Of a DNA stretch of 64,000 bases, positions 44,016-46,749 are shown one piece after another. The DNA comes from Sulfolobus sp. E5-1-F (GTDB lineage Archaea; Thermoproteota; Thermoprotei_A; Sulfolobales; Sulfolobaceae): assembly GCF_009601705.1 (NCBI RefSeq), contig NZ_CP045687.1:470630-534629 (forward strand), in the 5' to 3' direction. The notes under the pieces were generated by a model. It did not search any database. It saw only the letters and a program-made list of their open reading frames with translations, and was not told where the DNA came from. Every line of letters starts with the position of its first letter. Position 1 is the stretch's first letter. The translations under genes were made by a program, and so were the position numbers.

Positions 44016-44071
44016 AGTGAGGATGACGAATCCGGGAACTGATAAGTGAGGACATGCGCGAACGCTGATTT
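44016..44071 (+). ncRNA. Box C/D guide sRNA between accC and the ABC permease
   Basis: Plus strand: box C GGAUGA (44021-44026, variant first position), 12-nt guide CGAAUCCGGGAA, box D' CUGA (44039-44042), linker UAAG, box C' UGAGGA (44047-44052), 12-nt guide CAUGCGCGAACG, box D CUGA (44065-44068). Equal 12-nt guides and a 4-nt linker are textbook archaeal spacing. AATTTTTAATG ~25 bp upstream may be its promoter. The 3' end meets the stop of the convergent ABC permease gene (44070). No target assigned. Confidence 0.78.
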
Positions 44072-45677
44072 AGGCTAAATAAATTCCTTCCTCTGCTACA
44101 TATTTCTTCCTGGCTAAATCCATCATCTTCCTTGTGAAGAATATTGAGTAAATTATTACTACTATTCCAAATATTAATGAATCCCAAGCGGCAAGAGGGA
44201 CATTTCCATTTGCAGTAGCAACTGCAATGTTTTTCATTATACCATGAGTGACTTGTAATGTATAACTGTTTGAGATTTGCCAATATTCCCCTATTGCCAA
44301 ACCTCCCCATGCGCTGTTAATTGTACTTGAAAGTCCTGCAATTATATATGGAAATGTTGAAGGTATAATTACATATCTTAACTTTTGCCAGAAGGAGAAA
44401 TTATAGTTCTTCATTATTTCCCAGTATTGATTAGGCATGTTCTTTATTCCAAGCCAATAGCTATAGAAAACGTAATAGAAAGTTGAAATGAATCCTAAGA
44501 GTATTACGTAGAACTCATTTGTCCAACTTCCAAAAACACTGTGAATAAAACTTATGGTTGATGTAAAAAGCAATGGGAAGTACGCTGGAGCTGGAAAAGA
44601 CGCGTAGGTTTGTATTACCGGTGTCAATACTTTTTCCAATCTTTCACGGGTTGCAAGAAAATATCCTAGAAATATTGAGAATACTAGACTTACAGTTGCA
44701 ATAAAAACTACTCTTATGTAGTCTATTAAGAGGTTAAAGAGAACGTTAGGAATGGTTGAAACTAAGTAAAGCCAAACAGATTTAGGTACCGATGAAATTG
44801 TAGAGAAAGCACCATACACTAATAATCCTAACAAAAATATAGAGATTCCAATGCCCAAATATCTCCAAGGCAAGTTCTTTCTAGTCTCTTCTTCATTGCT
44901 TGTAGTCCTACTTCCAATTCTAGTTACATATTTAGATAATTTAACAAAAGGGGCTATCGTGTTTGAGATTCTAGTAGTATACCTTATCCTCATTCTACCT
45001 CTTTTCGTCACTTTTATTTCAGTATCTAACCCGTATTTAGAAACTGTATAGTTGGCAAATTTTCTTAATATATAAGTAAATATGGTTACAAAGATTGCAA
45101 GTACTCCTAATCCCTCTAAGGCTAAATTGTACTCTTGAAGCGCAGTAAACTCTGCAATTAATGTACCTATACCAAACACGTGATAACTGGAACTACCTAT
45201 TGAGAAAACCTCGCTAACTGTAATATAGAAGAACGCATCAGCGAAACTTGGTATAAGATTTGCCGCTATTCTAGGCCACGAATAAGGGATATACAATTTT
45301 GTCATTTTACCCAGAAAGCCTAATCTGTAGTTTTCACTAACTTCTAAAAGATCGCTAGGAACAGTCTTAAAAGCTTGATATATTCCTATCCATATATTCC
45401 AAACCACAGCAGTGAAGACTAGAAAATCTACAGCCAATTCTATACCAATATATCCACCAATCTTATATACGAAGAATATTAAAACAACCGGAAAGAATGA
45501 AATAACTGGGACTGATTCGAAAACTTCTAAAACTGAAATATAAATGTTTTCAAACACCTTACTTTTTATTGCTATATATCCTAGAAACCACCCAGTGATT
45601 ATTGATAAACCTATTGTTAGAAAAACCCTACCTAGTGATGCGAGAGATGCCAAAAATATCAATAGAATTTCACTCAT
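44070..45677 (-). CDS. ABC transporter permease, two fused permease domains
   Basis: 535 residues with about twelve membrane helices in two halves (residues ~1-215 and ~280-520). Each half has a binding-protein-dependent permease EAA-like loop: SENYRLGFLGKMTKLYIPYSWPRIAANL (~122 region) and MKNYNFSFWQKLRYVIIPSTFPYIIAGL (~425 region). The type is that of the nitrate/taurine/sulfonate/thiamine group (NitT/TauT-like). The ATPase gene upstream overlaps by 8 bp. No substrate-binding protein gene is adjacent, so the ligand is unknown; the two permease units in one chain replace a homodimer. Confidence 0.9.
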   Translation of the reverse strand: MSEILLIFLASLASLGRVFLTIGLSIITGWFLGYIAIKSKVFENIYISVLEVFESVPVISFFPVVLIFFVYKIGGYIGIELAVDFLVFTAVVWNIWIGIYQAFKTVPSDLLEVSENYRLGFLGKMTKLYIPYSWPRIAANLIPSFADAFFYITVSEVFSIGSSSYHVFGIGTLIAEFTALQEYNLALEGLGVLAIFVTIFTYILRKFANYTVSKYGLDTEIKVTKRGRMRIRYTTRISNTIAPFVKLSKYVTRIGSRTTSNEEETRKNLPWRYLGIGISIFLLGLLVYGAFSTISSVPKSVWLYLVSTIPNVLFNLLIDYIRVVFIATVSLVFSIFLGYFLATRERLEKVLTPVIQTYASFPAPAYFPLLFTSTISFIHSVFGSWTNEFYVILLGFISTFYYVFYSYWLGIKNMPNQYWEIMKNYNFSFWQKLRYVIIPSTFPYIIAGLSSTINSAWGGLAIGEYWQISNSYTLQVTHGIMKNIAVATANGNVPLAAWDSLIFGIVVIIYSIFFTRKMMDLARKKYVAEEGIYLA

Positions 45678-46509
45678 TGCTATTCCCTCCTTTCTTTACT
45701 GGGGTTAAGAGGGCGTAAAGTATATCTAAATACTCTTGAAAACTTTCATCCTTTGGATTTCTTGGCCTTTCCAATTTTATTTCTACCTCTCCAATTACTG
45801 TAGCTGGTCTTCCGTTTAGAACGTAAACTCTATCAGCTAACTCTACCACTTCACTCAGGTTATGAGATACTAAGACTACGCTATGAAGTGTAGTAGACTC
45901 ATTAAATAGCATCGAATGTACTTCTTGCCTTAAACCCTCTGCAGTTAACTCATCTAAGTGTGAAAACGGTTCGTCCATTAAAAGCACTAATGGATTAGCG
46001 GCTAAAGCTCTAGCTATTGCTATTCTTTGTCTCATTCCTCCGCTCATTTGTTTTGGGTAAAAATCCTCAAAACCTTGAAGTCCTACTACCTCTAGCATGT
46101 GCTTAGCTAATCTGTCCTCTTCTTCTTTAGGTAATTTCCTATATTTTAAACCCAGTTTAACATTTTCCAATGCAGTTAACCAAGGAAAAGTAGCTATTGA
46201 TTGATGTATAAGTGTAATTTTTGGCGTCGGGCTAGTTACCTTTTTTCCTAATAGTCTAATTTCCCCTTTAAGGGGTTTTACAAATCCTCCTAGTACTCTT
46301 AGTAGTGTTGATTTACCAATCCCAGATGGACCTACTATAGCTATAAGCTCCCTATCTTTAGTGTACATATTAATATTTTCGAATACTAAATATCCATTAG
46401 GGTAAGCGTAAGCTATATCTAAGGCCTCTAGGATTCTTCCAACAGCTTCACCGTTTTCTCTCTTCTTATAAATTCTTAAAAGCTTTTCGACCGTTTTTCC
46501 TATTGTAAA
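45670..46509 (-). CDS. ABC transporter ATPase, real N-terminus lacks a start codon
   Basis: Nucleotide-binding subunit of the NitT/TauT type: Walker A GPSGIGKSTL, Q-loop HQSIATFPWL, signature MSGGMRQR, Walker B VLLMDEPFSHLD, H-loop VSHNLSE. From ATG 46368 the protein has 232 residues but Walker A begins at about residue 13, so the first strands would be missing. The open frame continues upstream for 47 codons to 46509 with ABC-like sequence (ILEALDIAYAYPNGYLVFENIN) and contains no ATG, GTG or TTG; it is bounded by an in-frame TAG (46512-46510) directly after an ATG. Start by ATA/ATT, readthrough, or a mutated start are possible. Confidence 0.75.
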   Translation of the reverse strand, partial: FTIGKTVEKLLRIYKKRENGEAVGRILEALDIAYAYPNGYLVFENINMYTKDRELIAIVGPSGIGKSTLLRVLGGFVKPLKGEIRLLGKKVTSPTPKITLIHQSIATFPWLTALENVKLGLKYRKLPKEEEDRLAKHMLEVVGLQGFEDFYPKQMSGGMRQRIAIARALAANPLVLLMDEPFSHLDELTAEGLRQEVHSMLFNESTTLHSVVLVSHNLSEVVELADRVYVLNGRPATVIGEVEIKLERPRNPKDESFQEYLDILYALLTPVKKGGNSNE

Positions 46510-46749
46510 CTACATTGGGGATTTATCTTTACGATGAAAAATATTGGAAATTCTTTTTAATTTTAGAAGTGTGTTTAGAATTAATAACTCTATTGAAAAA
46601 ATCAAACAAAGATAAATAACGTTAAACGGCATGGTAGTTAAAAGTTGATATACTGAATATCCATAAACGAGTTTAACACTCTCTATTCCAATCCTATAAT
46701 CAACGAGCGTAAGCAATAGAGAGACCAAACCGATAATAATCCACTTCAC
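46510..46749 (-). CDS. Small membrane protein upstream of the ABC ATPase
   Basis: 79 residues, GTG start; two transmembrane helices (residues ~3-17 and ~41-62) and a basic C-terminal tail (LKRISNIFHRKDKSPM). Not recognised. It is in the same frame as the ABC ATPase and separated from it only by its TAG stop, so either it is a separate small protein or a membrane N-terminus of a once fused or readthrough protein. Located between leuD and the ABC genes on the same strand; AT-rich bases upstream could be a promoter. Confidence 0.55.
   Translation of the reverse strand: MKWIIIGLVSLLLTLVDYRIGIESVKLVYGYSVYQLLTTMPFNVIYLCLIFSIELLILNTLLKLKRISNIFHRKDKSPM

Follow-up and report, generated by a model that had tools for sequence, protein, structure and literature searches.

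An ABC transporter ATPase gene of Sulfolobaceae without an in-frame start codon and its conserved out-of-frame start: possible expression through a start-proximal frame change

In the present study, we analyzed an ABC transporter ATPase gene of Sulfolobus sp. E5-1-F in a window of 64,000 nucleotides, which is the whole stretch of DNA considered here. The first-pass annotation of this DNA described an ABC ATPase frame with no start codon after an in-frame amber stop, preceded by a same-frame membrane ORF of 79 residues with ATG-TAG at its end. Both descriptions were borne out on the minus strand. From the TAG at 46512-46510 to the stop at 45670, the ATPase frame is uninterrupted; it contains zero ATG, GTG, or TTG codons upstream of ATG 46368 and shares its frame with the 79-codon ORF upstream. 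An out-of-frame TTG with a Shine-Dalgarno (SD) sequence had been overlooked. The features of the locus are as follows.

44070..45677, minus strand: permease of 535 residues with a normal ATG; overlaps the ATPase stop by 8 nt
45670..46434, minus strand: ABC transporter ATPase frame, 254 codons from ATC plus the stop; Pfam ABC_tran; orthologues in 31/31 genomes
46306..46332, minus strand: Walker A motif GPSGIGKST of the ATPase, from the translation
46428..46442, minus strand: mini-ORF TTG GAA GAA TCC TAG, conserved at the nucleotide level; stop kept in 30/31, the exception being G016
46432..46434, minus strand: ATC codon at which ATPase homology begins; proposed to serve in non-AUG (re)initiation or to be read as an early residue after a -1 shift
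46440..46442, minus strand: out-of-frame start codon TTG; ATG in 16 and TTG in 15 of 31 genomes
46448..46452, minus strand: SD sequence GGTGA, 5 nt before the out-of-frame TTG
46475..46482, minus strand: TATA-like box CTTTTAAG, from the sequence; putative promoter
46510..46749, minus strand: 79-codon gene for a small membrane protein, terminated by the amber stop and distinct from the ATPase gene

The product of the startless gene is an ABC transporter ATPase, with both the ABC_tran domain (104.9 bits against a Pfam cut-off of 25) and the Walker A motif present. Its closest NCBIfam profiles include the importer ATPases SaoA (192 of 360 bits required), NtrCD (177.3 of 291.8), and TauB (169.6 of 357); all scores were under the curated cut-offs, and none of these named importer equivalogs or subfamilies was reached. 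The next gene encodes the permease, in which Pfam matched two stretches of a single chain. The pair resembles the ATPase and permease of NitT/TauT-type importers in the ABC_tran domain and in the nearest NCBIfam matches, but differs from them in its sub-threshold scores and in its 535-residue permease with two matched stretches. The NMT1 substrate-binding family of Pfam (PF09084) had zero matches in the same genome, whereas 12 of 14 control genomes matched. The permease start was read in 29 genomes (G023 and G013 yielded none). Its overlap with the ATPase stop amounts to 4 nt in 20 genomes, 8 nt in six, and 17 nt in two, and in one genome the start lies 4 nt beyond the stop; the start codon is ATG, GTG, or TTG.

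One ATPase orthologue was found in each of the 31 Sulfolobaceae genomes searched (11 genera), and the start region of Metallosphaera javensis AS-7 (AP024487.1) is the same as that of the window. The conserved protein begins I-L-E... at the Ile codon, 22 codons before ATG 46368. After this codon, the constraint is that of an ordinary coding sequence: amino acids are kept and synonymous sites vary, with the first 25 residues conserved at the protein level. No in-frame ATG, GTG, or TTG precedes the Ile codon in 28/31 genomes; the other three (G008, G014, and G019) each have a single in-frame TTG or GTG, which is unconserved and lies 13-37 codons upstream. In G016, G024, and G043, there is no such codon at all up to Walker A. 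Holding in 28/31 genomes, the absence of in-frame starts appears to exceed chance. Since the genomes are related and not independent, the conservation counts given here are descriptions and not probabilities. A one-base frame break was noted near Walker A in a G run of the G013 orthologue (L025), which is either a real disruption or an assembly error. G013 is included in the start counts and lies outside the tree; therefore, changes were counted over 30 genomes and letters over 31.

These comparisons revise the proposed N-terminus. The first-pass annotation considered approximately 47 residues upstream of ATG 46368 to be needed by the domain, while only about 22-27 are required. The remainder of this extension appears to be noncoding: a stop occurs only 4-5 codons before the Ile codon in 7/31 orthologues, and 46509-46443 holds the TATA-like box and the SD sequence, which suggests that the long open stretch upstream in the window arose by chance. 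Homologues were also checked for a start at ATG 46368, and homology begins at the Ile codon instead. We rejected ATG 46368 as the start because a protein beginning there would lack the first strand and the segment rich in aromatic residues that precedes Walker A, both of which relatives conserve at the amino acid level.

The 79-codon gene was matched in 17 of the 31 genomes, at varying places. It is unlinked to the ATPase in other genera, being located, for example, approximately 6.5 kb away in G007 and on the opposite strand in G020, and its product had no Pfam or NCBIfam match. To judge from this distribution, it is a real small gene that ends before the putative ATPase promoter and has no role in the ATPase. 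The two frames coincide in the window and in G001, G002, and G006, which would fit amber readthrough producing a membrane-tethered ATPase, a recent nonsense mutation at codon 2, or a sequencing error. Nevertheless, the probability of this group of explanations is negligible. Readthrough is contradicted by the independent location of the small gene and by further stops between the two ORFs in other genera. A recent mutation does not agree with a family-wide startless state or with G002, in which the TAG is retained without a preceding ATG. The identical state in 31 genomes also speaks against a sequencing error. The suggestion of initiation at ATA or ATT fared better in part. A non-standard start is plausible, but at AUC 46434-46432 (AUC or AUA in relatives). 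We rejected the codons near the amber stop because that stretch resembles a promoter and leader and contains stops in other orthologues.

The out-of-frame start lies 5 nt before the Ile codon in 27 genomes, 8 nt in three, and 2 nt in one. It is always in the wrong frame, and a start moved into the ATPase frame was found in 0/31 orthologues. An SD match of at least 4 nt, spaced 5-9 nt before this start, is present in 24/31; this count includes G021 and G024 (GGTG at 6 nt), which were counted by eye. The SD sequence is weak in G010, G019, and the five g10 genomes (G015, G041, G042, G043, and G044). The SD pairing energy was better than that of an upstream control stretch in 30/31, the exception being G023. 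A permissive pattern located a TATA-like motif in all 31 genomes, with its first nucleotide 37-44 nt before the out-of-frame start. The start codon itself alternates between A and T only, with six inferred changes and no GTG. The permease uses GTG among its starts, indicating that normal starts of this operon admit GTG; the out-of-frame start of the ATPase is GTG in no genome. Such A/T-only switching is odd for a plain start codon.

The mini-ORF that follows has four or five codons and reads M-E-E/Q-S/Y-stop in 30/31, with M-E-E-R-Y-stop in one genus. Its stop takes the forms CTA-G, TTA-G, CTA-A, or CTG-A; an alternative count, in which G013 was omitted and G015 was read downstream of its insertion, gives 28/30. 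Among 19 further conserved Leu columns, a comparable out-of-frame stop was present in 0-25 of about 30 genomes. Parsimony on the 30-genome tree infers no change at eight of the ten sites of [A/T]TGGAA[G/C]AAT. To count sites, we removed the extra codon of G008, G017, and G024, padded G016 with a gap, and read the motif of G015 before its 21-nt insertion. Ten-site windows that reach eight unchanged sites amount to 7 of 711 in the gene, so the count alone is an event of approximately 1%. The evidence from third positions is stronger. In the ATPase frame, these positions changed 0, 0, 0, 2, and 3 times as far as the mini-ORF stop and then 6 and 11 times (gene mean, 9.65), and the sum of 5 over five successive third positions compares with a minimum of 31 elsewhere in the gene (n=233 runs). 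The Ile codon at the start of homology is ATC in 24, ATA in seven, and ATT in none of the 31 genomes, while the corresponding numbers for the rest of the genes are 69, 254, and 163. At four other conserved Ile columns, ATT occurs in 12, 15, 6, and 9 of 30 genomes.

Two orthologues depart from this arrangement. G015 (L056) has a 21-nt in-frame insertion immediately after ATC CTA, with the block and the mini-ORF stop (TAA) intact. G016 (L061) lacks the GAA and the mini-ORF stop, and its mini-ORF frame runs for 35 codons. This genome has the strongest SD sequence of the set (7 nt) and an in-frame ATT 6 nt after it, and its lineage possibly switched to direct non-AUG initiation.

From the startless ATPase frame and the conserved out-of-frame start and mini-ORF, we infer that ribosomes load at this start and change frame; it is probable that they reach the ATPase frame by one route or another. 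The mechanism that we favor, at a probability of about 0.4, is termination at the mini-ORF stop followed by reinitiation at AUC or AUA. A ribosome would load at the SD-led AUG or UUG in the other frame, read the four- or five-codon mini-ORF, and enter the -1 frame within five codons. After termination at the mini-ORF stop, a step back of one nucleotide would place AUC or AUA in the P site, and reinitiation with Met would produce M-L-E-A-L-D... in the window. AUC/AUA sits 1 nt upstream of the P-site codon at mini-ORF termination in the 30 genomes with the stop. If it is the start, the overlap between the mini-ORF and the ATPase is 7 nt in 30/31, with G016 lacking the stop. Termination-reinitiation would explain both the kept mini-ORF stop and the restriction of the Ile codon to AUC/AUA. 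Moreover, with the ATPase stop and the permease start overlapping by 4-8 nt in most genomes, each ORF of the operon would then run into the next. On a broader level, the balance tips moderately toward an archaeal cellular gene that is expressed family-wide only through an obligatory start-proximal frame change, from a translated mini-ORF into a transporter frame without AUG, GUG, or UUG. This would be a translational switch for the operon, operating by reinitiation at a non-AUG codon or by a -1 shift that lacks a slippery site.

Some observations do not agree with reinitiation. The restart codon is non-canonical, being AUC or AUA in 31/31. One mutation to AUG would create a normal start, yet AUG is found in 0/31, so this model has to posit some reason for keeping the codon weak. 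A mini-peptide does not account for the invariance of the third positions in GAA and GAA/CAA, the A/T-only switching of the out-of-frame start is odd, and G016 requires a second assumption, namely, direct AUU initiation from a strong SD sequence. In bacteria, infC has a conserved non-AUG start, a weak codon used for control. The likeness lies in this conserved weak start codon, whereas infC is a translation factor gene with no invariant out-of-frame start before it. AUC and AUA are poor starts; one paper reported that an ATT start in Escherichia coli has approximately 0.3% of the activity of ATG. A review of archaeal initiation names no starts other than AUG, GUG, and UUG (PMC7531240). Translational coupling has been described in Haloferax (PMC6728339), whereas these sources report none for the one gene pair tested in S. 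solfataricus (PMC7531240; PMC6728339). In E. coli, a wrong-frame start with an immediate stop is corrected by termination-reinitiation (PMC9841429). As described for such overlapping ORFs, including the AUGUGA/GUGUGA frame correction of E. coli (PMC9841429; PMC6728339; PMC10666635), the first start is SD-led and the stop is a few nucleotides away, as in the present case, and the common 4- and 1-nt overlaps share their phase with the 7 nt found here. In contrast to those pairs, the second ORF here, the ATPase, has no AUG, GUG, or UUG, the first has just four or five codons, and the arrangement is conserved across a family in one transporter gene.

A programmed -1 frameshift within the first codons is a slightly less probable alternative. 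Ribosomes would start at AUG/UUG and slip back by one nucleotide before the mini-ORF stop, giving a product that starts M-E-(E/Q)-I-L-E, M-E-(R/T)-I-L-E, or similar, and the initiating SD sequence, 8-15 nt behind, may pull the ribosome back. This explanation accommodates the frame offset, which is kept through linkers of 2, 5, and 8 nt, including G016 without the stop. It also fits the invariant GGAA and AAT nucleotides, as in a recoding site, and the SD-like element upstream of the proposed shift in the same 24/31 genomes. An IS element in which the initiator SD also stimulates frameshifting is mentioned in a review (PMC5009743). However, the block, WTG GAA SAA UMY stop, has no slippery heptamer of the form X-XXY-YYZ. 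Re-pairing after a one-base back-slip would be poor at every codon and absent for UAC to AUA (reasoned by hand), and visual comparison of pseudoknot-free single-sequence folds of the 31 stretches revealed no common helix. If the Ile codon were simply read after the shift, ATT would be expected to be tolerated, but it was found in 0/31, and this mechanism does not need a conserved mini-ORF stop. In another model, which is unlikely, initiation takes place directly at AUC/AUA (or AUU in G016), and the out-of-frame start serves as a decoy or brake from which no ribosome passes to the ATPase. The conservation of AUC/AUA in 31/31 and the in-frame ATT 6 nt from the 7-nt SD sequence of G016 argue for it. 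On the other hand, the SD sequence of the window is 13 nt from AUC but 5 nt from TTG, and linker indels in multiples of three preserve the offset. We consider it quite improbable that the block serves to bind a regulator or small RNA, with the ATPase starting at an ordinary downstream codon. The linear conservation of nucleotides is consistent with such a role. However, G016, G024, and G043 have no codon for such a start before Walker A, in-domain starts in the others are unconserved, and the first 25 residues show conservation at the protein level.

The closest published case for a -1 shift is fucA1 of Saccharolobus solfataricus, which is expressed by a programmed -1 frameshift and is the only one reported in Archaea according to one review (PMC8211752). 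Another review lists archaeal viruses and magnesium chelatase as further likely -1 cases (PMC5009743). fucA1 is found in the same archaeal family and genus group as the ATPase and shares the -1 register (PMC8211752). It has A-AAA-AAT in a 40-nt overlap of ORFs of 81 and 426 codons, and is interrupted only in the two S. solfataricus strains named in that source, whereas the ATPase has no heptamer, changes frame at codons 1-5, and does so in 31/31 genomes, if our reading is correct. The bacterial prfB, dnaX, and IS frameshifts (PMC5009743; PMC3711429) are similar in having an SD element behind the shift; prfB also carries a stop codon where the shift occurs. They differ in their slippery codons and in direction or place. 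A published screen for frame transitions missed prfB cases with the shift within 50 nt of the start (PMC3711429), which suggests that similar genes may be overlooked elsewhere.

A family-wide gene that would have to break one of two rules, the rarity of the archaeal -1 shift or the limitation of starts to AUG, GUG, and UUG, is a simple and testable case. Genetic tools are available for this group. Annotation would probably assign wrong N-termini to such ATPases or call them broken. Our literature search, for which most subscription papers were outside coverage, found no publication naming this ATPase gene.

We also searched the genome of E5-1-F for sister genes. The scan covered four-codon mini-ORFs ending in TAG only. 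An SD sequence followed by WTG, three codons, and TAG gave 42 matches with GGTG (control, 34) and 97 with GAGG (control, 92). No second gene with the same device was recognized among the 30 block matches and the 60 SD-mini-ORF matches read (30 of the 42 with GGTG and 30 of the 97 with GAGG). The block WTGGAASAATM itself gave 30 matches against 32 in the control and, by eye, an SD sequence within the preceding 16 nt was present only at the ATPase site.
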